A DNA stretch of 26,352 bases from a virus. Under the pieces are notes generated by a model. It did no database searches, had not been told where the DNA came from, and saw nothing but the letters and a program-made list of their open reading frames with translations. The position numbers were made by a program, and so were the translations under genes. Position 1 is the stretch's first letter. Each line of letters starts with the position of its first letter. Positions 2,954 to 25,100 of this stretch are shown piece by piece. The DNA is taken from positions 1 through 26,352 of the IMG/VR virus record IMGVR_UViG_3300017728_003423. The stretch is one strand, 5' to 3'.

Positions 2954-2969
2954 AGTAAGTAATTATACT

Positions 2970-4886: not shown

Positions 4887-4892
4887 GACTAG

Positions 4893-4900
4893 TATTTATA
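4893..4900 (-). promoter_or_regulatory. T4 late promoter box TATAAATA
   Basis: The minus strand reads TATAAATA, an exact match to the T4 late consensus. It lies in the 20 bases between the flavoprotein stop and the radical SAM start, with six bases between box and ATG 4886. It would give the radical SAM and FabZ genes a late transcript beginning at or next to the start codon. Confidence 0.65.
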
Positions 4901-4906
4901 ACTAAA

Positions 4907-5632
4907 TTAGTCTACAAATGCACGTTCAAGAACAAAGTCTCCGGCTTCTCCTAAATTGCCTTCTGCAAAACCATTTTCTTCAAAAAAATCTCTGCATTGA
5001 TAATTCATATCCGGGCCACCGCATACCATAATTCTATCTGTATCTTTGTTAAAACCGTTTTCTGTGAAATTATTTATGTGGTCCCAAAATCTTCCTTCCC
5101 TATCATATGTTTCTTGTGTGCAAGTATCATAATATTTTAAAGGAAAGTTTTCTGTTATTTCGTTTATAGTGTCTGTATATGTGTGTTCTGAGTGTGTTCT
5201 AGTGGTATGTACTAATATAACATTTTTAAATTTATCATATGTAGCAGGGTCTCTAATTATACTCATAAACGGTGCAATGCCTGTACCTGTTGACAGCAAA
5301 TATAGATTATCTGCTACAGTTAAGTTATCAATCGTTAAAGTGCCCGTTGTTTTAGGCATACATATTACTTCATCTCCAACTTTTAAATGCTGTAGACGGC
5401 TTGTAAGAGGTCCGTCAGGTACCTTAATACTAAGGAACTCTAAGTGGTCTTCGTAATTAGCACTTGCAATACTATATGCTCTGAGTATTGGTCTAGCACC
5501 CTCTTCTTCAGATGTTAATCCAATCATAGCAAATTCTCCGTTTACAAAACGGAATGTTTGGCTTCGTGTTGTTTTAAAACTAAATGTTTTGTCTGTCCAA
5601 TGATGGACCCATGTAACAGTTTCTTTGTTCAA
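4907..5632 (-). CDS. Ferredoxin-NADP reductase-like flavoprotein
   Basis: This 241-residue protein fits the bacterial ferredoxin/flavodoxin-NADP+ reductase family, which moves electrons between NADPH and ferredoxin or flavodoxin through FAD. The FAD-binding RxYS motif is at residues 51-54 (RAYSIAS), and the nucleotide-binding GTGIAP motif is at 116-121. MVCGGPDMNY near the C-terminus matches the usual CGxPxM element. The start appears to be TTG 5632, overlapping the previous gene's stop as TTGA, so translation is probably coupled. The block also holds a radical SAM enzyme, and reduced ferredoxin or flavodoxin is the normal electron source for those, so a supporting role is plausible. No ferredoxin gene is visible in this window. 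Confidence 0.88.
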   Translation of the reverse strand: MNKETVTWVHHWTDKTFSFKTTRSQTFRFVNGEFAMIGLTSEEEGARPILRAYSIASANYEDHLEFLSIKVPDGPLTSRLQHLKVGDEVICMPKTTGTLTIDNLTVADNLYLLSTGTGIAPFMSIIRDPATYDKFKNVILVHTTRTHSEHTYTDTINEITENFPLKYYDTCTQETYDREGRFWDHINNFTENGFNKDTDRIMVCGGPDMNYQCRDFFEENGFAEGNLGEAGDFVLERAFVD

Positions 5633-10015: not shown

Positions 10016-12112
10016 TTATTTAGAAGTAGCAATAAACACACCGTCCCAATCTTTAGGAAGTTTTTGAGTCTTTTGAAATTCACAACGTTCAATCCACATA
10101 TCATAATAACCTTTCATCTTACCCTCAAAGGCATCATGTAGTTGCTCACATAATTTAATTGCTTTATCAAAATTTTGTTTACGATATTGCATGTGCATAT
10201 CTTCATGCATCTGTTTGGCTTTTGCATACTTGCTTACTTTGATATCAAGTACAGTATATATTTCAATGCCCACAGTCTTTCCTTTTACTGCTAGGTCATC
10301 TACTTTAAGATAAAAGAATTTATTCTTTGTGTGTTTATAAGTGTCACCGCCTACAAGTAACAAGCAACCATATTCTTTACACTTGCTCTCTATTCTTGCC
10401 GCAGTACTTACAGCATCGCCAAGAATATCATAACTGTGTCTTGCAGTTGAACCCATCTCACCTATATAACCTAACCCTGTGTTTATACCAGCACCCATGC
10501 CTACCGGAGGTCTGCCCTCTGCTACAATTTTATCATTAAATGTTTCTACTGCTCTAAGCATTAGTAATCCTGTCTTCACAGCACTTGCAGGATGATCTGG
10601 ATCTTCCATTGGAGCATTGTGTATATGCATACTTGCATCGCCTATATATTTAATAACCATTCCGTCAGCATCAAGTATAGGTTGTGTAATAGCATCCATA
10701 TAACCATTCATTATTTTTGTAAGTCCTTTTACATCATCTCCAAAACTTTCTCCTAGTGGAGTAAAGCCACGTAGGTCAGAAAAGCATATACTTACTTCAC
10801 GTTTCATACCTTCTTTAATTAGTGCAGGGTTTTCTTGCAACATTCTCACCACAGTAGGGGAGGCATAACCGGCAAATTGTTTTTCTATCTCTTGTCTTAG
10901 TTTAAATTGTATCCAAAAATTGTTAAATGTGCTATGTGTGAACACTAAAAATCCTGATAAAACAGGAAAAGTTGCATCAAATAATACCAAATTTGCTGTA
11001 TAAGAGTGTATACTATAGTATATAATTCCACCTAAAATACTAAATGTTAGAGGTATATTAGCCCATAATGGTGCTCTATACACAACTAAACCTATCAAAA
11101 TCATAGTCAGTAGCCCACACAGAAGCTCGTATAAAGCACTTAACTGACTTCGTGTTATGTTACTACCATCTATAAAATTTTGTAGCATATGAGCTTGTAT
11201 TTGCTGTGGATATATGTTACCACGTGGAGTTGGGACAGGGTTTGCAATACCTTCTGCTGTAACACCTACTATAACCCATTTGCCTTTTAAGTCAGGAATA
11301 CTATCTGCACCCTCATATTCTATTTGTTCGAAGTTATTATTGAAACGTACATAAGCAGTACCGTCTGGTTGTGTTACTATAGGATCAAATGGAGGAACAG
11401 CAACTTCTTGTATTCCTATCTCACTTGTTTTAATCATATAACTAGGTTTGCCTGTATGTACTCTTAACATTTCAACTGCAAAACTAGGATATATTTTATC
11501 GCCTACAGTAATAGCAAGTGGATATGTTCTTGTTTGATTATCTGGTTGTGGTGCAGAAGCATTGACTCCTTTACCGTTTGCAACAACTTCTAACATAGGC
11601 ACGTTTGTTACAAGGTTAGGCCATGTAAGTAAATAGTCTTTTGCAGGAACAGGACCTATTGTGCCTGTACCTATATGTGGTCCTGTTGACTTTACGCCTT
11701 TAACACTTGGTGTTTGACTTAACACATTATAATTTACAGGATTCTTTCTTGCTCCTGGAACATTCATTACATTCTGTTGCATCATACCTGCAAAACTTTC
11801 ATCACCCTGAAATCTATCTGTTTCTGGAAACATAATGGTCCAGCCCAAAACACCGCCATTCTTCATAGCAACGTCTATTACTAATTGGGCATAGTATTGT
11901 CTTGGGAAAGGATACTGTCCGTATTTGGCTAAACTTTTTTCACCAATGTTAATCAATACAACATTGTCGCTTTGTTTAATTTCATCTAATTGCTGATAAC
12001 TGTCAAAAACCTGACTACGGAAACTTTGAAGTGCCGTAGGGTCTGCTACTCTTAATCCGAGTAGTAATAGTATTGTTACTGCTACTGCATAACCGCTATA
12101 TATCCATTTCAT
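10016..12112 (-). CDS. CHASE2-domain membrane adenylyl cyclase (class III)
   Basis: A 698-residue sensor cyclase. An N-terminal membrane helix (about 4-22) leads into an extracytoplasmic CHASE2 domain (about 22-320), three membrane helices (about 326-345, 350-368, 374-394) and a cytoplasmic class III cyclase domain (about 440-625). The metal-binding aspartates are Asp446 (CFSDLRGFT) and Asp492 (KYIGDASM). Lys488 and Asp562 (SYDILGD) are the pair that selects ATP, so cAMP is the likely product. The transition-state arginine is Arg573, but the usual asparagine three codons after GDA is Ser569, which may lower activity. ATG 12112 is preceded by a late box and the operon terminator; the frame extends to a GTG at 12151, inside that terminator. 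The curli operon lies just upstream on the same strand. CHASE2 ligands are unknown. Confidence 0.9.
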   Translation of the reverse strand: MKWIYSGYAVAVTILLLLGLRVADPTALQSFRSQVFDSYQQLDEIKQSDNVVLINIGEKSLAKYGQYPFPRQYYAQLVIDVAMKNGGVLGWTIMFPETDRFQGDESFAGMMQQNVMNVPGARKNPVNYNVLSQTPSVKGVKSTGPHIGTGTIGPVPAKDYLLTWPNLVTNVPMLEVVANGKGVNASAPQPDNQTRTYPLAITVGDKIYPSFAVEMLRVHTGKPSYMIKTSEIGIQEVAVPPFDPIVTQPDGTAYVRFNNNFEQIEYEGADSIPDLKGKWVIVGVTAEGIANPVPTPRGNIYPQQIQAHMLQNFIDGSNITRSQLSALYELLCGLLTMILIGLVVYRAPLWANIPLTFSILGGIIYYSIHSYTANLVLFDATFPVLSGFLVFTHSTFNNFWIQFKLRQEIEKQFAGYASPTVVRMLQENPALIKEGMKREVSICFSDLRGFTPLGESFGDDVKGLTKIMNGYMDAITQPILDADGMVIKYIGDASMHIHNAPMEDPDHPASAVKTGLLMLRAVETFNDKIVAEGRPPVGMGAGINTGLGYIGEMGSTARHSYDILGDAVSTAARIESKCKEYGCLLLVGGDTYKHTKNKFFYLKVDDLAVKGKTVGIEIYTVLDIKVSKYAKAKQMHEDMHMQYRKQNFDKAIKLCEQLHDAFEGKMKGYYDMWIERCEFQKTQKLPKDWDGVFIATSK

Positions 12113-12117
12113 AGTGA

Positions 12118-12125
12118 TATTTATC
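12118..12125 (-). promoter_or_regulatory. T4-type late promoter box GATAAATA
   Basis: GATAAATA on the minus strand lies between the operon terminator and the cyclase ATG at 12112, five bases away. It gives the cyclase its own late transcript, separate from the curli operon upstream. Confidence 0.6.
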
Positions 12126-12137
12126 GTATTTTTTATC

Positions 12138-12168
12138 AAAAAAAAGCACACTCTAGGTGTGCTTTTTT
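12138..12168. terminator. Strong intrinsic terminator ending the curli operon
   Basis: GCACAC-TCTAG-GTGTGC (12146-12162) is flanked by eight A residues and six T residues, so the stem extends through A-T pairs. It works in both directions on paper, but only minus-strand genes approach it. It begins three bases after the stop of the start-less -1 frame (12171-12173), which suggests that stop is the true end of the operon's coding sequence. Confidence 0.88.
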
Positions 12169-12170
12169 AT

Positions 12171-12299
12171 TTAACATTCTTTAGGATTCTTAGAGCAGTA
12201 TTCTTCTAACTTTTTTTGATTATCATTAAAAAGTTGTATAAGTTCTTCTGCTGTATATTCCTTTTCTCTTTTATTTTTGAATAGAGAAAAGGTACTTAC
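12171..12299 (-). CDS. Start-less -1 frame: probable frameshifted C-terminus of the lipoprotein
   Basis: From GTA 12299 a frame of 42 sense codons ends at TAA 12173-12171. It reads VSTFSLFKNKREKEY, then TAEELIQLFNDNQKKLEE, and closes with YCSKNPKEC. It has no ATG, GTG or TTG after the preceding in-frame stop, so it cannot start by itself. It is in the -1 frame relative to the lipoprotein, and a shift on GGGAAAG would fuse it to give a 135-residue lipoprotein with a charged helical tail and two cysteines near the end. Its composition looks like real coding sequence and it ends at the operon terminator. Alternatives are a decayed gene or a single-base sequence error. Confidence 0.5.
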   Translation of the reverse strand, partial: VSTFSLFKNKREKEYTAEELIQLFNDNQKKLEEYCSKNPKEC

Positions 12300-12305
12300 T
12301 TTCCC
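12260..12305 (-). promoter_or_regulatory. Probable -1 programmed ribosomal frameshift signal
   Basis: On the minus strand the heptamer GGGAAAG (12305-12299) is read as G GGA AAG in the lipoprotein frame. The stop TAA follows at once within a six-base spacer TAAGTA. Then comes a perfect 10-bp stem CCTTTTCTCT / AGAGAAAAGG (12292-12283 and 12269-12260) with a 13-base loop. GGGAAAG is the slippery site used for the phage lambda G-T tail protein frameshift. No T-run follows the stem, so it is not a terminator. Confidence 0.6.
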
Positions 12306-12577
12306 TCGGTTTTGTCGTCTTTTTGTAGTTCGTCGGTCTGTTTGTCTACATTATCTGCAACTGTTTTAACTACACCTTGTGCTGTATCAATTGTTACATC
12401 TGCAATGTTTCTAGCATCATCAGTAATAGCGACTGCCATTGTAGCGGCTCCGCCAACTACTGAGTCTACTGTTCCTGTGACAATTTCTGTTCCGGCGTTC
12501 CAAGCACCTCCAACTGAGGCACAACTTGTTATTCCAAAACAAACAATAAGTCCGAGAAACATAAATAAATTCTTCAT
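12296..12577 (-). CDS. Small outer-envelope lipoprotein
   Basis: This 93-residue protein has a lipoprotein signal peptide: a short charged start MKNLFMF, a hydrophobic core and the lipobox ITSC, giving a lipidated Cys19. The mature part is small, Ala/Gly/Val/Thr-rich and then charged (NVDKQTDELQKDDKTEGK). Its Ala/Gly/Val-rich make-up loosely recalls entericidin-like lipoproteins, but I do not claim that family. The start ATG 12577 has an excellent AAGGAG Shine-Dalgarno site. It is the last gene of the curli operon, but a late-type box at 12632-12639 may also drive it separately. The reading frame ends on a likely slippery site (see the frameshift entry), so a longer 135-residue form may also be made. 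A role in spanin-like lysis or in anchoring the secretion channel is possible but unproven. Confidence 0.75.
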   Translation of the reverse strand: MKNLFMFLGLIVCFGITSCASVGGAWNAGTEIVTGTVDSVVGGAATMAVAITDDARNIADVTIDTAQGVVKTVADNVDKQTDELQKDDKTEGK

Positions 12578-12631
12578 CTACTTTCTCCTTATATATAAGT
12601 GTTATAAAACCATCTGTTATTATAACATATA

Positions 12632-12639
12632 TATTTATC
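12632..12639 (-). promoter_or_regulatory. Late-type box GATAAATA before the lipoprotein gene
   Basis: GATAAATA lies about 55 bases before ATG 12577, so this transcript would have a normal leader with the AAGGAG site. A TATAAT hexamer lies just downstream (within GTTATAATAAC) but without a good -35, so a second host-type start is possible. Confidence 0.45.
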
Positions 12640-12656
12640 GGAAAAGTGTTGTAATT

Positions 12657-12675
12657 ATGTTACAATTAGTAACAT
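12657..12675. repeat. 19-bp perfect palindrome, possible operator
   Basis: ATGTTAC-AATTA-GTAACAT has seven-base arms and lies between the stop of the 102-residue protein and the lipoprotein promoter box. It has no T-run, so it is not an intrinsic terminator. Its half-site GTAACAT also occurs twice, as direct repeats, at 18312-18331 at the other end of the operon. Confidence 0.45.
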
Positions 12676-12676
12676 T

Positions 12677-12985
12677 TTAAATTCCGTGTCCGTTAAAAGT
12701 ACGGTCACCTGCAATGCTATTTTGGTCATGTAAATATAATTCATAACACAAGATAGATCTGGTCTGCTCGTTATTACATGTTTGAATTAACTCTAATAAG
12801 TGATTTCTATTTGATTCTTCTATTTCGTGGACTAAATTACACCAACAAAAAAAGAAATAAAATGTTATTGTAACGAATACTGTATAAAATACAACTACAG
12901 GGAAAAAATATGTGAATAGCAAAAAGTGTGTAAAAGCAACCGATAGGCAATAAGTTCTATATGATGATAGCCAACTAGTTATCAC
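12677..12985 (-). CDS. Unknown membrane protein, GTG start
   Basis: This 102-residue protein has a very hydrophobic, Phe-rich N-terminal half (about residues 12-50), long enough for two membrane helices, with two Cys near the end (FFFCWC). A soluble charged C-terminal half follows (EIEESNRNHLLELIQ), containing two more Cys. The start is GTG 12985, overlapping the end of the 53-residue gene by 11 bases; no internal Met offers an alternative. A small membrane protein with a short soluble tail could be a holin, but no family signature is visible. It lies in the 3' part of the curli operon, after the second curlin-like gene. Confidence 0.55.
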   Translation of the reverse strand: MITSWLSSYRTYCLSVAFTHFLLFTYFFPVVVFYTVFVTITFYFFFCWCNLVHEIEESNRNHLLELIQTCNNEQTRSILCYELYLHDQNSIAGDRTFNGHGI

Positions 12986-13136
12986 TGTTCTTAAATTGTT
13001 CTATATAGGCATTCGAATGCCAATAGGTATCTAACACAATATCCGCAACTAAGGCTATTAGAACCAGTGTCATTATTACGGATAGATATAAATTTATACC
13101 AGCGGTTATTTTTAACCACTTAATCATATGTTTCAT
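12975..13136 (-). CDS. Tiny single-pass membrane protein (53 residues)
   Basis: A short gene with ATG 13136, AAGG about four bases upstream, and stop TAG 12977-12975. It encodes MKHMIKWLKITAGINLYLSV and continues with a hydrophobic stretch (IMTLVLIALVADIVL) that should cross the inner membrane once, then a short polar tail ending QFKNSDN. Its end overlaps the GTG start of the next gene, so the two are probably translated together as a membrane protein pair. A TATAAT hexamer sits just before the AAGG and could be an extra promoter. No family recognised; a holin/antiholin-type pair is only a guess. Confidence 0.6.
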   Translation of the reverse strand: MKHMIKWLKITAGINLYLSVIMTLVLIALVADIVLDTYWHSNAYIEQFKNSDN

Positions 13137-13182
13137 TACCTTGCATTATAGTACGATTTGTACTGAATGTCAACCTTTTATG

Positions 13183-14136
13183 CTATTCTTGAGTTACAGA
13201 TATAGAACATCCGCCTGATGTATGACATGTTTGGTTAATGCTATAACTTTGTGCTGTACTACCTTGTTGTAATAAATCTAGTGTTGTAGGTTGGCTACCA
13301 TATAATAAAACAGTAGCAGTATGCTCTGCATTATTCTTCTGTACAATACTAACAACATTAGCATCGTTGTATGCTTTTACTGTGAGATTTTTTGACATAT
13401 CGTTTTGTTGTTTTGCCCAAAAGTCATTATCATCTGCGTATATCCATAAGTTAGCAGTATGTCCGTCTGGACTATTAGTATTACCATTAGTTTGATATCC
13501 TACAATTTTGTTGTTGTCCCCATGAAAGTCTGCTATTATTTTATGACCACCATATTCACCGCCATCATCGGTACCAAATGTTGTGTCATTTTTATTAGCA
13601 AGTGCAACACCTTGGCCCCATCTAAGCAAATTACTATCACCCCAAACGTGAAATCCTACTTCACTATCTTGACAATTAGCACCTGCTGTACAAACTTGAT
13701 GAACAAATACATCATTGTTTATTCCATCAACATCGCCACAGAATGTAGCATTGTTACAATTTACTTTACCCCATGTGCTAGTAAAACCCGCAAAGTTTTT
13801 TCTGCCTTCTTGTAGTATTTTTACTGTATTACCGTCGCCTGATACAGAAAACTCTACTTCATTGTCTTCGCCTAATTGCCCAATCCACATAGTAAGATTA
13901 TCAACATTTCCATATTGTAATCCTAAATCTAAGTCTATGTGTTGGTCTTTACCAGACTGTAATATATCTAATACTAAATTATCACCTTCTTGGTCTATAT
14001 GTACATGATTATGTTCGTCTCCTGCATTAGCATTAGCAGGTGCAAGTAATAGTATCATGCCTAATAACATGTATCCTAATACTAATAGAGGTGTGTCTTT
14101 AGGTTTCATATTTTTTAATTTTTCATCTATATTCAT
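13183..14136 (-). CDS. Curlin-like secreted protein (second)
   Basis: This 317-residue protein has a signal peptide or signal anchor (LLVLGYMLLGMILLLAP, cleavage expected near ANANA-G). The mature part has irregular curlin-type repeats, strands of the form IxxxQxGxxN. It starts with HIDQEGDNLVLDILQSG, closely matching the other curlin-like protein, and continues with IGQLGEDNEVEFSVSGDGN and ILQEGRKN. The end is CHTSGGCSISVTQE, a cysteine pair before a final strand. Curlins are exported through CsgG and assemble into amyloid fibres; this could be the major or nucleating subunit. I choose ATG 14136, two bases after the FecR stop with AGGAAG upstream, over the longer frame to 14181. Repeats are degenerate compared with CsgA, so amyloid formation is inferred. 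Confidence 0.75.
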   Translation of the reverse strand: MNIDEKLKNMKPKDTPLLVLGYMLLGMILLLAPANANAGDEHNHVHIDQEGDNLVLDILQSGKDQHIDLDLGLQYGNVDNLTMWIGQLGEDNEVEFSVSGDGNTVKILQEGRKNFAGFTSTWGKVNCNNATFCGDVDGINNDVFVHQVCTAGANCQDSEVGFHVWGDSNLLRWGQGVALANKNDTTFGTDDGGEYGGHKIIADFHGDNNKIVGYQTNGNTNSPDGHTANLWIYADDNDFWAKQQNDMSKNLTVKAYNDANVVSIVQKNNAEHTATVLLYGSQPTTLDLLQQGSTAQSYSINQTCHTSGGCSISVTQE

Positions 14137-14137
14137 A

Positions 14138-15331
14138 TTAATCTTCCTGTCTAATAATAATAGTAGTCCCTTCGCAATCATTTAAACATATAATAGTGTC
14201 TTTAAGATTATTGTCGTATAATTCTAATCTAGCACTTATTCCTGATGCTTGTCTAACACTGATAGTATTTGTAACTTGCCTAAAGAAAAATATTTTTCCG
14301 TCTAGTGCCAGGGTATTAACTTGTGTTTGTGGGTCTAACCCTAGTGCTGTACCTTCAATTTTATCAATGCCTAATGATGTATCTTTACTACTACTGCTAC
14401 TACTTTTATCTAAAGTATTTGTTTCCTCTATTATTTCTAGTAGGTCCTGTAAAAAATCTACTGCTAATAAATCAAAATCTAACTCTGTGTATTCTAAATC
14501 CTCTGTGGTATCTTCTAATACATCTTGCTCGATGGCGTTTGCATCCAATCCGTCAAAATCTAACAATCCGCCGTCGCCTTTTAATTCTTGTTGCTGTTCT
14601 TCTTCTGCTTCTACAATTTCTGTAGGCTTACTTACAATAAACATGTTATCAATTTGATTTAAATCTAAATCTACTATAACAACAGGATTAGTCGGAATTG
14701 TTTCAAAAGTGCTTACCATAACAGCCTGATAGGCCTCTGTTAATATTTGTGTTCCGCCGGCATTAGTAACTGTTATACTTCCGGACGGTCCACAACCTTC
14801 CTCTAATCTTACTGTGTCTGTACAATTTTCATCTGGTAATAATATTACCAAACTTCTACCCAGTTCATCTACTGTGGTAGTAAAATCTGTTCCCCTAATA
14901 CCTATCGTGGCAGTAGGAGTATCAATGACGATATTTTCTTTAGGTACTAATCCTAACCCGCCTGTGGCAAATCTTGCCGTTCCTTGCACAAAATTAAGAG
15001 CCATCTTACTTTTGCTTGGATCAGGATCATATACATATTCATTTATTTCCATATATGTATGTTCTGTCAAACTAACCTGTGTATCGTCTATAAATTTTAG
15101 TTTTAATCTACCATTGGTAGTTTCAACTTCGTCTAAACTTTGTATGTCTGTGTCTAACTTCGCAATCAAATTTTCACCAGACGTTCTATTAATTGTTCCT
15201 GGTGCACCACTTTGTTCGAATACTCCGCCGATACTGTCATTTGCATCGGCGGAAATACTATAAGTCGTGCTTAACAATAAAAATGTATATAAACAAACCT
15301 TAGTCAGTTTGTCTAATACTAACTGATGCAT
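14138..15331 (-). CDS. FecR-domain periplasmic protein with curlin-like C-terminus
   Basis: This 397-residue protein has a signal peptide (KVCLYTFLLLSTTYSISA) followed by a FecR-type beta domain. Its signature includes LKFIDDTQVSLTEHTYMEI and the TPTATIGIRGTDF strand near residue 145. FecR domains usually sense or relay signals in the periplasm. The middle is very acidic (Glu/Asp/Gln/Leu-rich) with a run of six Ser. The last 40 residues (TISVRQASG..., then CLNDCEGTTIIIRQED) resemble the ends of the two curlin-like proteins that flank it, including a CxxxC pair and a final IRQ strand. No membrane helix for a classical anti-sigma factor is seen, so FecR-sigma signalling is unlikely. The start ATG 15331 overlaps the first curlin-like gene; GTG 15337 is an alternative. 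It might cap, nucleate or regulate the fibre. Confidence 0.8.
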   Translation of the reverse strand: MHQLVLDKLTKVCLYTFLLLSTTYSISADANDSIGGVFEQSGAPGTINRTSGENLIAKLDTDIQSLDEVETTNGRLKLKFIDDTQVSLTEHTYMEINEYVYDPDPSKSKMALNFVQGTARFATGGLGLVPKENIVIDTPTATIGIRGTDFTTTVDELGRSLVILLPDENCTDTVRLEEGCGPSGSITVTNAGGTQILTEAYQAVMVSTFETIPTNPVVIVDLDLNQIDNMFIVSKPTEIVEAEEEQQQELKGDGGLLDFDGLDANAIEQDVLEDTTEDLEYTELDFDLLAVDFLQDLLEIIEETNTLDKSSSSSSKDTSLGIDKIEGTALGLDPQTQVNTLALDGKIFFFRQVTNTISVRQASGISARLELYDNNLKDTIICLNDCEGTTIIIRQED

Positions 15332-16118
15332 TTTCACTGTCTAAATCAACGTCAATTTTACCAGGACATACAGGACTACATGTAGCCGCATTGCTTTGTA
15401 AAAATTGGAAATCACCATCTGATCCTACTAAAACAAATTTTAAGTAGTGGTCAGAGTTACCAGTTTGATTTGATGTAATTGCATTATCGTCACCAGTAAT
15501 GTTCATTTCCCAAGTTGCGGAACCGGCATCTACTTTAACACCGCTTTGTGAAAAAGCAGTAGTACCGTTCCAACCTGATCCTGGAGTACCACCCCAAGTT
15601 CTTGAGTTAGCAACTGCACTTCTAAAGTCGTTCCTGTCACCTAGTATTGTTAAATCCATATTAAGGTTGTCTGAGGCAAAGTTGGCGCCGATATCAACAT
15701 CAAATATGTTAGTATCACCCTGGATGTTCCAAAGCATATCAACACTATCTGCACTACCTGTAGCACCGATGTTCATATCTAGTGAATTACTATTTCCGTA
15801 GAAATACATATCCCAAACAGTTGATCCAGAACCGTCACCAGTCCATGCACCAAATATTTCGTTGGCATTACCGTCTTGAATGATATCAATAATCAAATTT
15901 GCACCTGTAATAACTAAATCGCTACCGTCAGAAGCATCGCCTGATATTTTGTTACCATTACCAGCCTGTAATATGGTTAATGTTAAATTGTCTCCTTGTT
16001 GGTCTAGCAACACTTCATTATCGTCAGCCGCTAATGATCCTGATGCTAAAGCAAAGATTAAAGTAACACTTGCGAAGACATTGATTGCAAATTTTTCCAT
16101 AAAATTTCTAGTCTCCAT
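15300..16118 (-). CDS. Curlin-like secreted protein (first)
   Basis: This 272-residue protein has a signal peptide (MEKFAINVFASVTLIFALAS, cleavage near SLA-AD). The mature part has repeated strands of curlin type, Q-x-G-x-x-N: LLDQQGDNLTLTILQAGNGN, IIDIIQDGNANEIFG, and later WNIQGDTNIFDVDIG and LTILGDRNDF. The C-terminus has a CSPVC pair and ends ASVSIRQTD. It follows csgG directly, as expected for a substrate of the CsgG channel. I start it at ATG 16118 because GGAGAG lies just upstream; ATG 16130 is also possible. The start overlaps the csgG stop by 11 bases. The irregular repeats suggest a diverged fibre subunit or adhesin rather than a standard CsgA. Confidence 0.77.
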   Translation of the reverse strand: METRNFMEKFAINVFASVTLIFALASGSLAADDNEVLLDQQGDNLTLTILQAGNGNKISGDASDGSDLVITGANLIIDIIQDGNANEIFGAWTGDGSGSTVWDMYFYGNSNSLDMNIGATGSADSVDMLWNIQGDTNIFDVDIGANFASDNLNMDLTILGDRNDFRSAVANSRTWGGTPGSGWNGTTAFSQSGVKVDAGSATWEMNITGDDNAITSNQTGNSDHYLKFVLVGSDGDFQFLQSNAATCSPVCPGKIDVDLDSENASVSIRQTD

Positions 16119-17094
16119 TCTTCTCTCCATTAGAATTGTTCTTTAGGAATATTTTTTCCCAAAGTTTTCTCTCGGCTTCGAATTCTTCATCTGGAACATC
16201 TAACTTCATCCATGTTGCTGATTCGCCAGGTTCTAATTCCTGTACGTCCCAATTCTCTGGATAAACAATTTCCCAATATCCTCTTTCGTCGCCTTGTTGT
16301 ATAAGTGCCAAAACAGCCGCCTCTATAGCCGAGCGTACTGCCCATGTAACACTTTCGTTCTCTGTCATACCACTCTCAAGTTCAAGTAATTTAGTATCCA
16401 TATCTAAAAATTTAAATACATCTCCTGCCTGACCTGTGCTTAATATGGTTTTGTATGTCTGTACGTTGAGTATAACCTCACCAGTTAGAGTACTAACTGC
16501 TCTAAGTGATACTACAACTGAATCTCTTCTAAATTGATTGGTTGTGCCAATACCGAGATACCTTGCACCATTACCGCCTGTTTCTATATTAGAGTCATAT
16601 CCTACGATACCACCTTCTAATATCATTCCAGCAAATAGCAATGGTTGTACTTGTTGTGCTGGATCTGTTTCTGTTGCATATTGTTCTCTTGTACTCCGAA
16701 CAATCTGTCTTTCCCGCACTAAATTATCAAGTCCTAAACCTCTTTCAACAACTCTGAACCAAGTACCTTTTGGGTTATCTTTGGCTCCAGCCGCCTTTAA
16801 GGAATCTATTAATAAATCTTTAGCACCTTGTGTTACGGCGGTGCTAAAACTTGCCGATCCATCCGAACTTAACCGTTGTCCTGTTAAGTCATCGAATTTG
16901 TAAACTGCTACCACAGGCATGGCTTCTGCTGGTGGCAACTGTCGTAATTTTTTATATGTTGGTAATTCTACAAATTTAGGTTCTTCTACACATTCTAAAA
17001 AGTCTGTCATACAGGCTTCATCGCCAGGGATTGATATGCTGGCGCATCCACTAATTAACAAAGCAAATACTACTGCTAAAATTGTATTCTTCAA
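16108..17094 (-). CDS. csgG: CsgG, curli outer-membrane secretion channel
   Basis: This 328-residue lipoprotein has lipobox LISGC (lipidated Cys17) and the full CsgG fold. Diagnostic stretches include VAVYKFDDLTGQ, STAVTQGAKDLLIDSL, WFRVVERGLGLDNLVRERQI and SVVVSLRAVSTLTGEVIL, with the transmembrane-hairpin region around FAGMILEGGIVGYDSN. CsgG forms a nine-fold outer-membrane pore that exports unfolded curlin subunits. E. coli CsgG has 277 residues; the extra length here is a Cys-containing insert after the lipobox and an acidic C-terminal extension of about 40 residues. The start is TTG 17094, four bases after the csgF stop with GGCGGG upstream; no suitable ATG exists. No csgE or csgD is present in the window. 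csgG and csgF are known in some T4-like marine phages. Confidence 0.95.
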   Translation of the reverse strand: MKNTILAVVFALLISGCASISIPGDEACMTDFLECVEEPKFVELPTYKKLRQLPPAEAMPVVAVYKFDDLTGQRLSSDGSASFSTAVTQGAKDLLIDSLKAAGAKDNPKGTWFRVVERGLGLDNLVRERQIVRSTREQYATETDPAQQVQPLLFAGMILEGGIVGYDSNIETGGNGARYLGIGTTNQFRRDSVVVSLRAVSTLTGEVILNVQTYKTILSTGQAGDVFKFLDMDTKLLELESGMTENESVTWAVRSAIEAAVLALIQQGDERGYWEIVYPENWDVQELEPGESATWMKLDVPDEEFEAERKLWEKIFLKNNSNGEKNGD

Positions 17095-17098
17095 AATA

Positions 17099-17596
17099 TT
17101 ACCCGCCTAATGTTCCAATACCAATTGGAATTTCTATTTCAGTAATAGTACCATCAGCATCAACAATCGTTAATCTAATGTAGTCTATACCGTCTATATT
17201 AACAACTTGGTATGATACATTACTATCTTCAATAGTAAATGCACCTTGAGTCGAATTTGTACAAGTTACATCTTCTCCGGGATTACAAAACATACTATCA
17301 ACGAGGCCCTTAGAAATTTGACTGTAAATTCTGCTTTCTAAATTTCTAATGAACTTGTTTATAGTTGAATTGTCTTCTGCTCGTTCTGCCGCCCTTAGAG
17401 CCGATTCAATCTCATCTTTAATCTTATCCTTTCTGCTTTTTTCTTGGTTTTCAATCGTAAGATAATGTGCACCAGTGCCTACGCCGCTGAAACTTGGATT
17501 TTTAAATTTTTGTACGAGTTGGTCTGCCATTACTGTGTGTGCAGTAAAAAAACCAACAATAACAAAAATACCTAAATGAGTTCCTGTTATTTTCAT
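17099..17596 (-). CDS. csgF: CsgF, CsgG-associated curli assembly factor
   Basis: This 165-residue protein has a signal peptide ending VMA-DQ. The mature N-terminus LVQKFKNPSFSGVGTGAHYL matches the conserved CsgF segment (FRNPNFGG...) that inserts into the CsgG pore and makes its second constriction. The rest is a helical neck (KIKDEIESALRAAERAE) and a beta head with Cys near residues 103 and 111. In E. coli CsgF couples secretion to surface nucleation by CsgB. The start ATG 17596 overlaps the upstream stop as ATGA, so translation is coupled, and csgG follows after three bases. CsgF here is slightly longer than the E. coli form (138). Confidence 0.88.
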   Translation of the reverse strand: MKITGTHLGIFVIVGFFTAHTVMADQLVQKFKNPSFSGVGTGAHYLTIENQEKSRKDKIKDEIESALRAAERAEDNSTINKFIRNLESRIYSQISKGLVDSMFCNPGEDVTCTNSTQGAFTIEDSNVSYQVVNIDGIDYIRLTIVDADGTITEIEIPIGIGTLGG

Positions 17597-17892
17597 GTTT
17601 TTTCTTTTTCCTCTATCAGTTGAGCAAGTGCATCTTTTTCTTTAGCATCGTCTAACACTTCTTGTCTTGCTCTATATTCTAACACTACATCAACTTTTTG
17701 TTGAAGTCTAATTAAATCTTGGTCTAGTCTACGCATTTTATCAATAACTCTAATTAATGCTATGTGCATATCTGCTAAAGCAGGGTCTATTTTTTCGCCA
17801 ATAAACCACCAAACATAATATATAAAATAACCCATGCCTACTGACATTATAATAGGAAATCCGTAATCACTAACTGCTTGAGTCAAGTCCAT
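17593..17892 (-). CDS. Small membrane protein with coiled-coil tail (paralogue B)
   Basis: This 99-residue protein has one membrane segment (about residues 12-31, FPIIMSVGMGYFIYYVWWFI) followed by a long charged helix that looks coiled-coil (RLDQDLIRLQQKVDVVLEYR). It aligns by eye with its upstream neighbour over the membrane part (GxPIxxSxxMGxFIYxV) and the R-x-x-L/V register of the helix, so the two are probably tandem paralogues. The start ATG 17892 overlaps the upstream stop as TAATG, with AGGAGA as Shine-Dalgarno site, and its end overlaps csgF. The topology fits a holin or a small membrane adapter; no family is proven. Confidence 0.65.
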   Translation of the reverse strand: MDLTQAVSDYGFPIIMSVGMGYFIYYVWWFIGEKIDPALADMHIALIRVIDKMRRLDQDLIRLQQKVDVVLEYRARQEVLDDAKEKDALAQLIEEKEKT

Positions 17893-18188
17893 TAGTCTCT
17901 CCTAGTGTCAACCTTACCGTCTTCAACAAAGTTATCTGCCCTTGCAACTCTATCTATATCCGGACGAAGGTCTAATGCACTACTAACTAATAAGTCAATC
18001 TTTAGCATTTCGTTACTCATTGTACTGGCTCTGGCTTCTAGGGCTGAACAGAATCCAGTCAATGTTTTTAACTGATCTACTATGCCTTCAAGTATTTGCT
18101 TAACCACCATGTAAATGAAAAATCCCATTACAAGACTTCCGGCGATTGGAGCACCTACCTCGGCGATTAAACTAAAGATATCTTCCAT
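17892..18188 (-). CDS. Small membrane protein with coiled-coil tail (paralogue A)
   Basis: This is the first gene of the curli operon, encoding 98 residues from ATG 18188; GTG 18206 is a possible longer start. It has one membrane helix (about residues 13-30, PIAGSLVMGFFIYMVVKQ), then a helical region with one Cys and a polar tail ending DTRRD. It shares the GxPIxxSxxMG(F/Y)FIYxV membrane motif with the next gene. The weak Shine-Dalgarno site and the CATAAATA box 63 bases upstream suggest late transcription of the whole operon from here. Possible roles are holin-type pore former or inner-membrane partner of the CsgG system; both are inference. Confidence 0.65.
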   Translation of the reverse strand: MEDIFSLIAEVGAPIAGSLVMGFFIYMVVKQILEGIVDQLKTLTGFCSALEARASTMSNEMLKIDLLVSSALDLRPDIDRVARADNFVEDGKVDTRRD

Positions 18189-18551: not shown

Positions 18552-18580
18552 AAAAAAAGGGAGCAAATTGCTCCCTTTTT
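18552..18580. terminator. Bidirectional intrinsic terminator
   Basis: GGGAGCA-AAT-TGCTCCC is preceded by seven A and followed by five T, so it works on both strands. It ends the 40-residue gene on the plus strand and, 15 bases past the stop, the fibre gene on the minus strand. Confidence 0.92.
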
Positions 18581-18594
18581 ATTGTTTGTAAAGT

Positions 18595-21500
18595 TTACAT
18601 CATATTAACTAAAACTTCAATTACACCTTCGCCTGCATCGTTTGAACCAACTGCTTTACCAATGATTCTACCTGCCTGTGCATTGTTATCTGTTTTAGCA
18701 TGACCTTTAACATCTGAACTTACCATTAAGTCACCTTTAGCAACTGGACCAGTAACCTTAGTAGGTACTCTTCCTGTTAATGCTACATATTGTCCATCTC
18801 CGCCTGCATTCATCATGTATGCTGGATCAGTACTTATAACACCTGCAACTCTATGGTCATTAGCAGTTCCACATGCTGTAACTTCTTTGTCTCCTGCGAA
18901 ACACACAACTGTACCTGCTTCAAGTTCTTCATTACTTTCATATTTCTCAGCCAAATCCGCATATTGTGCCGATGTTGCTGTACCTTGGAAAGTAACTGCA
19001 TAAACTTCGTTATATCTTAATGAACTAGTACCTAAATCAACTGCATTATCACTACTTGGTGTAATATCACCTGAGTGTGAATCATTAGCATCTGCTCTTA
19101 GGAAACTTGCACTACTAATACCGTCTAATGTATCTGCATCAACATTTAATGCGTCAACAAAAGAATTAGTAACTCTTGCATCAATAAGTGTATTAACTCT
19201 TGCCGCAGTATGGTATTCGTTTGTGCCTTCTGATAAGTTTGACGTACTAAAGTCGCCCATATCTACAGCAATATCATTTGTATTAACTGTAATACCTGTA
19301 CCAGCACCAACTGTTAAAGTTGCTCCGCCACTACTTGCACCACCTGTTAAACCATTACCTGCTGTTACGGATGTAATATCACCTGTTGTAGTTGAGTATC
19401 CATAACTTAGAATTTTATCTTCAATAGCCGCTGATGTCATTAATGATGTGTCATCATTACCAAAAGATTCACCACTTGTTTGTAATGAGCCCGCCGCTAA
19501 TTCTGAAACTGTTATACCTGAAACATTAAGTGTAACCGTACCCGAAGTGCCGCCGCCACTTAAACCTGTTCCTGCTGTAACACCCGTTACATAACCAGTG
19601 TCTGTTAAACTAATAGCACCTGTGCCACTGTCATATGAAATACCAGTGCCACCGCTTAAGGCATTTCTTGCTCTTGAATCGGTGTAGTATAAGTTTGTAT
19701 TCTCAGATAAATTTGCAGTTGTAAATCCTGCAAGACTAACTGTAAAGTCTAATGTATTATCTGCATCATCATAAGCAACTGTAATACCACTTTCAGTATT
19801 TGATGTTACCATAGCACCTACAGTATCTGCTACCCGTTCTGCTGTAAAGTATAAATTACTTGATCCCTCTGAAACATCGTCAGTATCACCACTTAGTTCG
19901 CTTAATGCATCTTTTGTGGCTACCTGAGCGTCAACGTATGCTTTTACTGATTGCTGTGATGGAAGTTTAGTAGCACTATTAGATGCCATATTATCTTCAT
20001 CAACTAATGCATTTGTTATCCTTGCATCTGCTCTCGCATTTGTAAAGTATAAGTTAGTTGAACCTTCTGATAAACTATCAGAATCTTTTGCACTAAAGCC
20101 TGCATCTACTCTAGCATCTGCTCTAGCATTTGTAAAGTATAAGTTACTAGAACCTTCTGATAAATCATCAGTATCTTTACTACCTAAGTTTAAATTGGCT
20201 CCTGTTGCCGCCGCCACTCTGGCGTCTGCTCTAGCATCAGTATAATAAAGGTTAGTATTTTCTGATAAATCTGCAGTTGTTCTTGCTATTGTATATGTTG
20301 ACGAACCATCATTAAATACCCATGCATCTGAACTTTCTTTCCAATGTAAATATGCATTAGTTGATGTTCCTCTTTCAATTTCAATACCAGAATCTTCACT
20401 TGGAGTTCCTGATTCGTTATTGTTAAGAATAATAATGTTATCATCTACTGTTAGTGTTTCAGTATTAACAATAGTTTGTGTACCATTAACTGTTAAGTTA
20501 CCACTTAGGATCATATCATCACTAAATGTTTTAGCACCACCAATACTTTGTGTACCAGTAGTTCTAACAACTGTACTATCTGCTGTAATACTGCCTGAAC
20601 TAATATCAATACCTGAACCACCACTAAAGTGAGCTCTTACTTCACTAGCACTTGGGCCTGTATATGTAATTGTTCCGCCACTGTAAGCAAGACTTCCGTC
20701 TCCGCCTGCGTCTGTTACTGTAATGGCTCCTTGAGCATCTGAATCTGCATATTGAGTTATGCTTGTTGCAATAGCACCATCAGTAATTGTAATACCAGTT
20801 CCTGCTGTAATATGAGCTCTTACTTCACTAGCACTTGGGCCTGTGTAAGTAATAACACCTGTTGTGCTGTTGTATGCAAGTGAGCCATCTCCACCAGCAT
20901 CTGTGACTGATATGTCTCCTCTTGATAGAGCTTCTGTATATTGAGTAATTGTTGTTGCAATAACACCGTCTGTTACAGTAATACCTGTTCCACCACTAAT
21001 ATGAGCTCTTGTTTCTGCCGCACTAGGACCTGTGTAAGTTAATACACCTGAACTATAACCTAAACTTCCGTCTCCGCCTGCATCTGTAACACTAATTGCC
21101 GCTCTGGCTCTTGTGTTATTAAAGAACAAGTTACTTGAACCTTCTGTAATATCATCTGTATCACCACTTAGTTCGCTTAATGCATCTGCTGTATCAACTT
21201 GTGCATCTACATAAGTTTTAACTGCTAACTGTGAAGGTACTAAACTATTTGACGCACTACCAAAGGCGACATCTGTATCAATTGCGTTTGCAATTCTGGC
21301 ATCTGCTCTTGCGTTTGTAAAATACAAGTTAGTTGAACCTTCTGTCATTTCATCTGTATTATCTTTTGTTAAAATTTGTGCATCAACGTATGCCTTAGTT
21401 GCTCCATCCTGAGCCTCTACTGGATCATCTAGATTGTTGATACTGTTGCTGTTGAAATTAATGTTTGAACCCATTGTCAAACCGCTAGTACCTGTAAGTA

Positions 21501-22074
21501 CTTGACCTGCGTCTACTGTAATTCCACTTTGTAAATTAATTACACCAGTTCCTGCGGCGTTAAGTTCAACGTCACCTGATCCTGTTGTTTTAATAGATAA
21601 GTTTTGGTTAGCATCTGCAGTAACAGTAATAGTACCTGAATCATCTTCAAGAACTTTTTGTCCGTTAACATACAAAGATCCTGGACCAATGTATACATCT
21701 CTCCAAACTTTTGAAGTAGAACCTAAGTCATATGTATTAGTTGTTGCAGGTATAACATGTCCTGCAAGTGTTCCTGCCGCTAAGAAAGTTTGTACACCAC
21801 CTGTAAAGGTTGCTGATGTAGTATCTAAGTTAAGTGTGGCGTCTCCTGTTGTGGCGCCTCCTGATAATCCATTACCTGCTACTATACTACTAATATCACC
21901 TGCCGCGGCTGATGTTACTTCTGTATGTTTTGCAAGTCTGTGTCCGCCTGCTGTTGAACCGTCGTGGACAATAACGGTATTTAAATCTGTATCGATAGTA
22001 ATCTCACCAACTAATCCAGTAAATGAACTATGTTGGGAAGTAGTACCTCGTCTCCATTGAATTGCTGTGGCCAT
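18595..22074 (-). CDS. Long repetitive tail-fibre protein
   Basis: A 1159-residue fibre that probably binds the host surface. The N-terminus (MATAIQWRRGTTSQHSSFTG) is the short beta domain common in marine phage fibres. The shaft holds at least eight variants of a unit with core NLYFTNARADAR, usually preceded by TDDLSEGS, three tandem copies of a GDGSLAYxxGxITYTGPSAS unit, and TVNGTQT-type strands. The C-terminal domain starts near ALNVDADTLDGISS and contains YADLAEKY, VAGVISTDPAYMMN and TGRVPTKVTGPVAKGD. It closely matches the end of the other fibre and may be a trimerisation or chaperone-like tip. The start ATG 22074 has AGGA nine to twelve bases upstream. It ends 15 bases from the bidirectional terminator. 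Plus-strand frames inside this gene are shadows of its Ala/Thr/Gly-rich coding. Confidence 0.88.
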   Translation of the reverse strand: MATAIQWRRGTTSQHSSFTGLVGEITIDTDLNTVIVHDGSTAGGHRLAKHTEVTSAAAGDISSIVAGNGLSGGATTGDATLNLDTTSATFTGGVQTFLAAGTLAGHVIPATTNTYDLGSTSKVWRDVYIGPGSLYVNGQKVLEDDSGTITVTADANQNLSIKTTGSGDVELNAAGTGVINLQSGITVDAGQVLTGTSGLTMGSNINFNSNSINNLDDPVEAQDGATKAYVDAQILTKDNTDEMTEGSTNLYFTNARADARIANAIDTDVAFGSASNSLVPSQLAVKTYVDAQVDTADALSELSGDTDDITEGSSNLFFNNTRARAAISVTDAGGDGSLGYSSGVLTYTGPSAAETRAHISGGTGITVTDGVIATTITQYTEALSRGDISVTDAGGDGSLAYNSTTGVITYTGPSASEVRAHITAGTGITITDGAIATSITQYADSDAQGAITVTDAGGDGSLAYSGGTITYTGPSASEVRAHFSGGSGIDISSGSITADSTVVRTTGTQSIGGAKTFSDDMILSGNLTVNGTQTIVNTETLTVDDNIIILNNNESGTPSEDSGIEIERGTSTNAYLHWKESSDAWVFNDGSSTYTIARTTADLSENTNLYYTDARADARVAAATGANLNLGSKDTDDLSEGSSNLYFTNARADARVDAGFSAKDSDSLSEGSTNLYFTNARADARITNALVDEDNMASNSATKLPSQQSVKAYVDAQVATKDALSELSGDTDDVSEGSSNLYFTAERVADTVGAMVTSNTESGITVAYDDADNTLDFTVSLAGFTTANLSENTNLYYTDSRARNALSGGTGISYDSGTGAISLTDTGYVTGVTAGTGLSGGGTSGTVTLNVSGITVSELAAGSLQTSGESFGNDDTSLMTSAAIEDKILSYGYSTTTGDITSVTAGNGLTGGASSGGATLTVGAGTGITVNTNDIAVDMGDFSTSNLSEGTNEYHTAARVNTLIDARVTNSFVDALNVDADTLDGISSASFLRADANDSHSGDITPSSDNAVDLGTSSLRYNEVYAVTFQGTATSAQYADLAEKYESNEELEAGTVVCFAGDKEVTACGTANDHRVAGVISTDPAYMMNAGGDGQYVALTGRVPTKVTGPVAKGDLMVSSDVKGHAKTDNNAQAGRIIGKAVGSNDAGEGVIEVLVNMM
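20631..21105 (-). repeat. Three tandem repeat units inside the fibre gene
   Basis: Three copies of a 61-63 codon unit follow one another. The shared GAGCTCT element falls at 20631, 20814 and 21003, spacings of 183 and 189 bases. Each copy encodes the order (I/V)TVTDAGGDGSL, TYTGPSA, RAH, GTGI and ITQY with small changes. The copies are similar enough for unequal recombination to change fibre length. Confidence 0.7.
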
Positions 22075-22153
22075 CGTTTTATTCCTATTTGTCTATAATT
22101 GTTATAGTCTATCACCCGTCGATGATAGTCAATAAGGTTTTCCCTATTGCGTA

Positions 22154-22161
22154 TATTTATC
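22154..22161 (-). promoter_or_regulatory. Late-type box GATAAATA before the 1159-residue fibre gene
   Basis: GATAAATA lies 79 bases before ATG 22074. The resulting leader would contain a hairpin (CTATCA/TGATAG, 22109-22114 with 22123-22128, eight-base loop) and then the AGGA ribosome site. Unlike four other boxes in the window, it does not abut the start codon. The 118-base gap after the neighbouring fibre stop holds nothing else I can identify. Confidence 0.5.
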
Positions 22162-22193
22162 GTTTTTTATAGGATTATGTGAGTTAACGGTTT

Positions 22194-25100
22194 TTAAATT
22201 AAGACTTCAACAACACCTTCAGCAATATGGTCTTTGCTGGATATTGCTTTACCAATAATGCATGCCGCTCCAATAAAGTGAGGATCACTTCCTACTTTTG
22301 CAACACCTGGTGTGTCACTAGTAACGAGGACGTCACCTTTAGCAACAACACCCTCTACTCTCACAGGTACTCGACCTCTAAGTGCAACTGAAACTACATA
22401 GTGTCCTGATTGACCTGCGTTCATCAAGTATGCTGGATCTGTGGAAACAACTCCTGCAACTTTTGTACTGTTTGGAACGTTTGTTACTGTAACTTCTTCT
22501 TCTCCGCCTAATACTAGTACTGTTCCTACCGGATACTCAGAGTCTGCTACATAGTTCTCTGCCAAGTCAGCATATTGAGCCTGTGTTGCTGTACCCTGGA
22601 AAGTAACTGCATGTACTTCATTATATCTCAATGAAGTTGAACCTAAATCTATTGAATTATCTGCACTTGGTGTAATAGTATGAGTATGTGAATCTGCCGC
22701 ATCGCTTCTAAGGAAACTTCCACTCGATAAACTATCTAGTGTATCTGCATCTACATTCAAGGCATCGATTGCCGTTTTGGTAATTCTTGCATCTGCTCTA
22801 GCATTTGTGTAATATAAATTCGTGCCTTCACTTAAATCACTAGTACTAAATGCACTCATGTCTACAGCAACATCATTTGCATTTACAGTAATACCTGTAC
22901 CTGCTCCAACGGCTAGGTCGCCTGTTGTGGTTACTGTGCCAGTTAAACCAGCACCGCCGCCAACACTAGTAACTGTACCAGTTGTTTGTGAATAACCTTT
23001 ACTTTCTATTTGGTCATTTATTGCCGCTGATGTCATTAATGATGTATCATTGTCTACAAAACTTTCACCACTTGTTTGTAGTGAACCAGCCGCTAGTTCT
23101 GAAACTGTTAATCCGCTAACATTTAAAGTAACTGCACCTGAAGTACCACCACCTGTTAGTCCAGTACCTGCACCAACACTTTCAATATCACCTGCATCAT
23201 TAGTAAAACTAATTACACCTGTTGAAGAATCATATGCAATATCGCCACTGGCACTGATTGCCGCTCTGGCTCTTGCTGTTGTATGATATAAATTTGTACC
23301 TTCTGATAAATCACTAGTACTTGCCGCCGCTATCCTGGCATCTGCTCTTGCGTTTGTATAATATAAATTAGTACCTTCTGATAAATCACTAGTTGACTTA
23401 GCAGTAAATCCTGCGTCTACTCTAGCATCTGCTCTTGCGTTTGTATAATATAAATTTGTTGAACCTTCTGCTGTTTCGTCTGTTGTTTGTGCATCTACAT
23501 AGGCTTTTACTGATTGCTGTGATGGAAGTTTAGTAGCACTATTAGATGACATATTATCTTCATCAACTAATGCATTTGTTATTCTTGCATCTGCTCTAGC
23601 ATTTGTATAATATAAATTTGTTCCTTCTACTAAGTCGCCTGTATTAAAATCGGTCATTGCTACTTGAATGTTGTTAGCATTTACAGTTATACCTGTTCCG
23701 CCTACAACATCAAGTGTTATTGCTCCTGCACTACCGCCACCTGTTAAACCATCTCCAGCATTAACCTGTGTAATTAGTCCACTTAGTGAACTTGGATTGC
23801 TGAATCCTAAATTACCTGCACCGTCTGTTGTAAGTACTTGGTTAGCACTACCATCTGCTGTAGGTAAATCATAATTACCTGCAATACTTAATGCGTCTAA
23901 TCTTGTGTTACCACTAAATGTTTTATTACCTGCAATAGTTTGGTTGCCACTTGTTCTAACAACTGTGGAATCTACAGCAATATCATTTGCATTGGATGTA
24001 ATACCATCTCCGCCTATGACGTTTACAGTTATATCACCTGTTGTGCCGCCACCGGTCATACCAGTACCTGCTACAACACCAGTAACATCTGCATTTGTGG
24101 CTATTGTAATTGTGTTACCACTATGGGTAACATCCATGTTAGTGCCGCCGACGAAAGTAACTAGTTCTGCACTACTTACTGCTTCGTTTCCTGCGGTGTC
24201 CGTTGTAAAACTCCAACTGCCAAAATTGTCATAACTTATTGATGTTGCACTTGCATTTGTTACTCTACCAGTTGCATCAACTGTAACTGTTGGTATTTGT
24301 GTGCTTGTACCATATGTACCTGCACTAACACCTGAAGCCGATAATGAAATAGCACCAGGACTTGATGTAATACCTGTACCACCAACTACATTAAGTGTAA
24401 CATCTCCTGATGTTCCACCACCTGTCATACCGTCACCTGCTACAACACTTGTCATATCTCCTGCCAAGTCTGCATCAATTGTTAATGTGCCTGCGGTATC
24501 ATCATATGTTGCTGATACGTTTGCACCACCAACAATAAGAGCACCAACTCTGTCGTCTACTCTTTCATCTGTATAAAATAATTTTGAACCTTCTGCAATA
24601 TCTGTTGTTGTTAAAGAAGCAATACTACTTGTAATAACACCTGTTGCACTATCGTAAGATAAATTTGCACCAGTGGTACTAATATTGCCTCTAGCAGTAT
24701 CTCTTACTAAATCTAAGTTAGCAGAAAGTGTTGTAACATTAGCAGAAATATTTCCTGCTGTTGAAATACTAATACTGTTTACAGCATCTGGTCCTAGTGC
24801 AGGAAAATAATAATCTCCGCCTACTTCTTTACCAACTTCTACTCTGTTAGTACCTGTTGCTGTAAAGAATAAATCAGATGTTGAAGATGTTGTAACTTGC
24901 TTAATTACACCGCCTTCAATAACTTTAAATACACCTGCGTCAAAGAATATAGTACCGTTAACAAGTAATTCATCATCACCTGTTCTTGGTCCCATAATAA
25001 CACCACCATCAACTGTTAATCGTTCTAATGGTCTTGTTCCTGTAGTATATGTACTACCTCCATAACTTACGTTTGTGTAATTAGAAATATGTGCAATGTT

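Follow-up and report, generated by a model that had tools for sequence, protein, structure and literature searches.

In this study, we analyzed a curli secretion module carried by a virus. The stretch under study, hereafter the window, is the whole IMG/VR virus record IMGVR_UViG_3300017728_003423, which comprises 26,352 bp. On the minus strand, read from 5' to 3', the genes are S1, S2, CsgF, CsgG, curlin A, a FecR protein, curlin B, tm53, tm102, a small lipoprotein and a CHASE2-adenylyl cyclase (Table 1). T4-like neck, virion and tail-sheath-stabiliser genes are present in the same record, together with two tRNA genes; on these structural genes the phage origin supposed in a first-pass annotation of the DNA was confirmed, and the possibility that the window is a piece of bacterial chromosome was rejected. 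The first-pass annotation had also grouped the channel, CsgF, two curlin-like cargos, the FecR protein and the cyclase into one unit. This grouping holds, because the gene order was found again in about 80 IMG/VR viral loci, far beyond chance, and the curlin-like genes thus co-occur with csgG in other genomes.

Table 1. Position of the module genes and of the regulatory features within and beside them in the window (TM, transmembrane segment).
Feature	Position	Strand	Characteristics
CHASE2-adenylyl cyclase	10016..12112	-	catalytic motifs FSDLRGF, IKYIGD, SYDILGDAVSTAAR present; phrog_35576, E 3e-144
Intrinsic terminator	12138..12168	-	GCACAC-CTAGA-GTGTGC then T8; -16 kcal/mol; between small genes and cyclase
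Small lipoprotein	12296..12577	-	lipobox ITSC; 18 loci
tm102, small membrane protein	12677..12985	-	9 loci
tm53, 53-aa membrane protein	12975..13136	-	9 loci
Perfect sigma-70 promoter	13145..13173	-	TTGACA-17-TATAAT; precedes small-gene unit
Curlin B, secreted	13183..14136	-	Curlin_rpt 6e-5, above cut-off (on 13183-14181); ends SISVTQE
FecR-curlin protein	14138..15337	-	Sec signal 1-33; FecR/CSS about 34-225; acidic linker about 226-318; C-terminal module 319-399, end TIIIRQED
Curlin A	15300..16130	-	Sec signal; beta-solenoid (model); ends SVSIRQTD
CsgG, outer-membrane export pore	16108..17094	-	Pfam CsgG E 1e-44, above cut-off; lipoprotein signal LISGC
CsgF, secreted adaptor of CsgG pore	17099..17596	-	Pfam CsgF E 8e-12, above cut-off
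S2, small membrane protein, S1 paralogue	17593..17892	-	phrog_18771
S1, small membrane protein	17892..18188	-	N-terminal TM and coiled coil; C-terminus DxRRD; phrog_18771
Palindromic terminator	18554..18580	.	divides tail-fibre gene 18595-22074 from csg operon

The initial claim that no phage system of this kind had been described does not stand. csgF and csgG were described in pelagimyophages in 2020 by Zaragoza-Solas et al. (PMC7029224) and csgFG in Melnitz in 2022 by Buchholz et al. (PMC9004378); in the same year, the arrangement HK(1-2)-csgF-csgG-csgA/B-FecR-csgA/B-adenylate cyclase, HK standing for histidine kinase, was reported in Pelagibacter podo- and myophages, with phage curli modules at all 65 surveyed ocean stations (PMC9599517). 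The same core order is annotated in the GenBank records of HTVC008M (NC_020484) and Melnitz (MZ577097), where two small genes, csgF, csgG, curlin, FecR, curlin and adenylyl cyclase follow each other as in the window at about 45% CsgG identity. The window adds to this pelagiphage module a tm53-tm102-lipoprotein unit with its own promoter. The insertion site is different as well: the module lies between the tail fibre and the sheath-stabiliser block in the window and between ssb and the tape-measure/baseplate hub genes in HTVC008M and Melnitz. The word CHASE2 has no match in the three papers. What is new here is the jumbo lineage as carrier, the curlin-like tail of the FecR protein, the lack of a kinase domain in S1 and S2, and the separate promoter of the three small genes.

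Comparison of the sheath-stabiliser protein placed the carrier outside the Pelagibacter podophage and Kyanoviridae myophage lineages. Its closest named relatives are the 285-470-kb jumbo phages PA5oct, Paride and Phosso, and jumbo phages are likewise closest for the gene at 1031-2200. A complete syntenic block, with 29-73% identity to the window, was found in a 250,519-bp contig (G005), in the order virion gene, stabiliser, nudix, the counterpart of gene 9389, cyclase, curlin B, FecR, curlin A, CsgG, CsgF, S2, S1 and tail fibre; the stabiliser of the window is 54% identical to that of this contig and 25% to those of HTVC008M and Melnitz. Judged by these relationships, the carrier is a jumbo T4-like marine myophage of a lineage other than the described pelagiphages, and a known curli gene set is now placed in a different group of phages. 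A literature search for curli in jumbo phages brought up no relevant paper, although such silence is no proof.

Both pore proteins named in the first-pass annotation held up against their Pfam models (Table 1), and CsgG was matched to csgG by NCBIfam as well (3e-49). CsgF displayed 42-43% identity to the CsgF of HTVC008M and Melnitz and 19% to that of E. coli. The E. coli csgBAC/csgDEFG system has in common with the window CsgG, CsgF and curlins with a CsgB-like C-terminal end; the window, in contrast, lacks CsgD, CsgE and CsgC, adds the FecR-curlin protein and the CHASE2-cyclase, and carries changed CsgG constriction residues, as seen in an alignment with the proteins of E. coli, HTVC008M, Melnitz and Caulobacteraceae. 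Specifically, no Pfam match to the periplasmic cap CsgE was obtained among the ten module proteins, and CsgE is without counterpart in the pelagiphage modules too (PMC9599517). The eyelet of CsgG measures ~12 Å, its substrates are exported unfolded, and CsgF links CsgB to the pore (PMC7304575). Separately, a csgG match was noticed in OR851715.1 (1,499 bp), which is titled Salmonella phage S.Kent 1-2-1 and is possibly mislabelled host DNA.

The two secreted cargo proteins proved to be curlin-like, as first proposed. Curlin B surpassed the Pfam cut-off and matched E. coli CsgB in NCBIfam (1.7e-6), and its end follows the same pattern as the CsgB end AIRVTQR; its start probably lies at 14136, adjoining the FecR stop. 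Curlin A stayed just below the cut-off (Curlin_rpt 5e-4, 20.5 bits against 20.7), with 15 of 37 relatives matching the repeat. The AlphaFold2 (AF2) model of curlin A, the one tested, is all beta (predicted local distance difference test, pLDDT, 77.5; predicted template modelling score 0.74) and has the form of a beta-solenoid, and fold comparison returned beta-helix proteins with Z up to 17.5. Since Foldseek gave nothing below 0.001, the best match being a SufD/SufB-type beta-helix at 0.02, the assignment is limited to the beta-solenoid class. Iterative hidden Markov model families of CsgF and the curlins fused, therefore positional families were used, and homology between CsgF and curlins is not claimed.

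The FecR-domain protein between the two curlins was recovered by Pfam (FecR, 6e-10), yet it is not a classical FecR, and its C-terminus is a curlin-type module. In its AF2 model (pLDDT 82.9), the C-terminal beta module of 6-8 strands is confident and the linker is of low confidence; the linker holds 27 acidic and 4 basic residues in ~90. The C-terminal pattern [VIL]x[VIL]xQ, followed by 0-4 residues, closes 51 of 53 distinct complete FecR proteins and, in another set with some of the same members, 78 of 80, as against 4 of 566 background open reading frames (ORFs) and 2.3% of shuffles, and it is the pattern that ends E. coli CsgB and the curlins. A profile of the FecR tail matched the C-termini of curlin B and A (P 1e-5 and 2e-4; scores 30.5 and 24.3), whereas the C-termini of CsgG, CsgF and the cyclase scored no higher than 15.3 and 120 column-shuffled profiles no higher than 13.9. 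Relatives of the protein are encoded at no fewer than 496 places in IMG/VR. FecR domains are common in alphaproteobacteria (143 in 385 genomes); among the matches listed, the FecR match ends before such a tail, which was present only in csg-linked FecR. Long ORFs in these genomes, of about 800 to 6,900 residues (L251-L279), contain many of the best FecR matches, and FecR may often be a retention domain of surface proteins.

The FecR protein, the small membrane proteins and the cyclase have been read as regulators that switch on the curli module, and the genes at the S1/S2 position were labelled histidine kinases (PMC9599517). Names and neighbourhood speak for this, as does the resemblance of the FecR domain to CSS domains of the anti-sigma type, for example that of PupR (Z 15.8, root-mean-square deviation 2.4, 135 residues), which filled the result list when the whole FecR protein was used in the fold search. 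However, the signal peptide sits directly before the CSS domain, so that the protein has no cytoplasmic anti-sigma domain: ahead of the CSS domain, the window protein and its relatives show only a signal-peptide-like stretch of ~33 residues, and no inner-membrane anchor. The window proteins searched included no recognisable sigma factor, and a regulatory role would leave the curlin-like tail without a function. S1 and S2 are paralogous proteins of ~100 aa each, S1 occurring in most loci with a start that is probably at 18188 here; Pfam detected no HisKA or HATPase domain in 24 S1/S2 members or in the HTVC008M and Melnitz genes at the same place. By their sequence, the supposed histidine kinases lack a kinase domain and are small coiled-coil membrane proteins, and we consider a regulatory role of this set very improbable.

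The layout of S1 and S2 bears on another proposal, namely that the timing of lysis is set by CsgG and CsgF, acting as a gated pore or pinholin (PMC9004378). The two TM-plus-coiled-coil proteins before csgF are holin-like in size and arrangement, and the pore could be leaky because CsgE is absent among the module proteins. Nevertheless, none of the holin matches was significant, holins work at the inner membrane but CsgG makes its pore in the outer one, and most loci keep two curlin cargos and a curlin-tailed FecR that a mere lysis pore does not need. A lysis function is accordingly improbable in our estimate. Uptake of nutrients such as iron or vitamins through the pore is less credible still and very improbable: CsgG alone is a wide pore and the FecR name points to iron, but the curlins, CsgF and a tethered FecR would be needless, and the window proteins searched yielded no recognisable iron-uptake gene. 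Both models account for fewer parts of the module than a superinfection block or the capture of cells.

The cyclase call of the first-pass annotation was borne out by Pfam (CHASE2 7e-33, Guanylate_cyc 2e-15). The metal-binding Asp, Lys and Arg motifs are kept, and the Asn of VNxAxR is replaced by Ser, as in many relatives. The start is most likely the ATG at 12112, since the upstream GTG falls within the strong terminator hairpin. In the Pelagibacter genus, a recognisable domain binding cyclic nucleotide monophosphates (cNMP) was observed in 5 of 61 genomes, in each case within one 870-aa frame.

These components suggest a complete phage-borne type VIII (curli) module, in which CsgG and CsgF would export curlins to the surface and the FecR protein would be a tether and plug instead of a transcription regulator; we give this reading an even chance. 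During infection, the CsgG/CsgF pore would form in the host outer membrane, and curlin A and B would be exported unfolded and then polymerise on the cell surface. The folded periplasmic domain of the FecR protein would exceed the CsgG eyelet and remain in the periplasm, its long acidic linker would thread the pore, and the CsgB-like C-terminal module outside may nucleate, cap or anchor the fibre. Because of this combination of folded domain, linker and CsgB-like end, the FecR protein is predicted to lodge in the pore and retain the fibre, and it could replace the missing CsgE cap. The FecR partner would thus change from a presumed iron regulator to a likely structural part, given the C-terminal module that it has in common with the cargo. 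The tether may be likened to the retention modules that hold adhesins of type I secretion systems in the outer membrane (PMC12077191, PMC6890996): in RTX adhesins such as MpIBP (5ix9) and LapA, a folded periplasmic domain could hold the exported chain in the outer-membrane channel. The N-terminal domain of the FecR protein matched the 'cell surface anchoring domain' of MpIBP (5ix9) with Z 7.0 and a deviation of 2.3 over 74 of 76 residues, and by profile with E 0.0097; no type I secretion system was found alongside. The comparison is one of working principle and not of membership, with CsgG here and type I secretion there.

The resulting fibre coat would most likely protect the infected cell against superinfection or hold neighbouring cells together; adhesion, superinfection block, pore and lysis aid, the roles considered in the first-pass annotation, had already been proposed for pelagiphage modules (PMC7029224, PMC9004378, PMC9599517). 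A narrower version, in which the exported fibres would clump sibling cells and thereby bring hosts within reach of released virions (PMC7029224), appears rather unlikely to us. The curlin cargo set is complete and curli aggregate cells in other bacteria (PMC9599517), but Melnitz infections proceeded without clumping (PMC9004378), and this version fits the module no better than a superinfection block does. Going one step further, the FecR-curlin protein might be a new kind of amyloid anchor, half periplasmic and half outside, that plugs CsgG and seeds or caps the fibre. The CHASE2 domain, predicted to be periplasmic, may sense the FecR domain and report the state of the envelope or of secretion as cyclic AMP (cAMP). 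We advance this only tentatively; if true, the infected cell would sense the occupancy of its own export pores.

Several points weigh against the tethered-fibre reading. The tether and the fibre are suggested by sequence and by predicted models, the match to 5ix9 is of modest strength, and retention modules are a feature of type I and not of type VIII secretion. The Pfam curlin model matched 1 of 21 FecR proteins, and that weakly (0.085), and the FecR of one bacterial cluster, from Hyphomonas (L088), is without the tail. The absence of clumping in Melnitz infections counts here as well, though Melnitz is a relative from another lineage. Furthermore, the cAMP branch is left without a receiver, because a search of eight phage records, six of which may be fragments, revealed no cNMP-binding protein, and 56 of the 61 Pelagibacter-genus genomes showed no such domain.

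Chromosomal clusters of Caulobacterales, namely two Caulobacteraceae metagenome-assembled genomes (MAGs; L086 and L087) and Hyphomonas TMED17 (L088), have csgF, csgG, curlin(s), FecR and CHASE2 cyclase in common with the window. These are cellular genomes, S1 and S2 were not found there, and the FecR of L086 and L087 ends in INVTQD, like the phage tails. The idea that every bacterial FecR cluster is phage contamination fails for L087 and L088, which lie on 82-kb and 705-kb contigs without sheath-stabiliser, with metabolic neighbours in L087. Phage-type csg modules were also noticed in contigs binned as Sphingobacteriales (L085), Pelagibacter (L090) and Pirellulales (L094) MAGs, a probable phage contamination of public bins; L090 and L094 look like binned phage DNA, and L085 is probably the same. 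In the CsgG tree, the window clade groups with the Caulobacteraceae and Hyphomonas clusters (99/90), separate from the HTVC008M clade. Together with the syntenic block in a jumbo lineage, this indicates that unrelated phages acquired one and the same module at separate insertion sites, and such an uptake speaks for a real advantage. Two separate captures by phages are likely, short of proven, because the deep forks of the tree are weakly supported (93/65).

The small membrane proteins and the lipoprotein, which had been taken as the end of the operon, are present, but they do not form a simple operon tail. A perfect sigma-70 promoter precedes them and matches 12/12 in 7 of the 9 loci with the unit (the window and 6 of 8 relatives), with unlike spacers; the best of 2000 random 90-base window stretches reached 10/12. 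The terminator that had been noted before the cyclase is indeed a strong hairpin. By its signals, the region 12138-13173 is an independent unit with its own promoter and strong terminator, and because of this promoter an early expression of the three genes, independent of the csg operon, is probable. T4-type late promoters (TATAAATA) were no commoner than chance in the window.

Beyond the module, two long tail-fibre-like proteins (18595-26216) have repeats in common, EGSTNLYYTNARADARI among them, and their C-terminal domains are related. A cluster at 2531-5632, perhaps a lipid or cofactor modification set, encodes a FabA-like/thioesterase protein, a radical SAM protein of B12 type and an NAD/FAD oxidoreductase. 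Finally, two phages (L002/L003, L280/L281) are 99.9% identical across 13.4 kb with the module, 96% identical in the next few kb, and then about 66-73% identical or unalignable, a pattern left by the recent exchange of a block that carries tail-fibre and curli genes.

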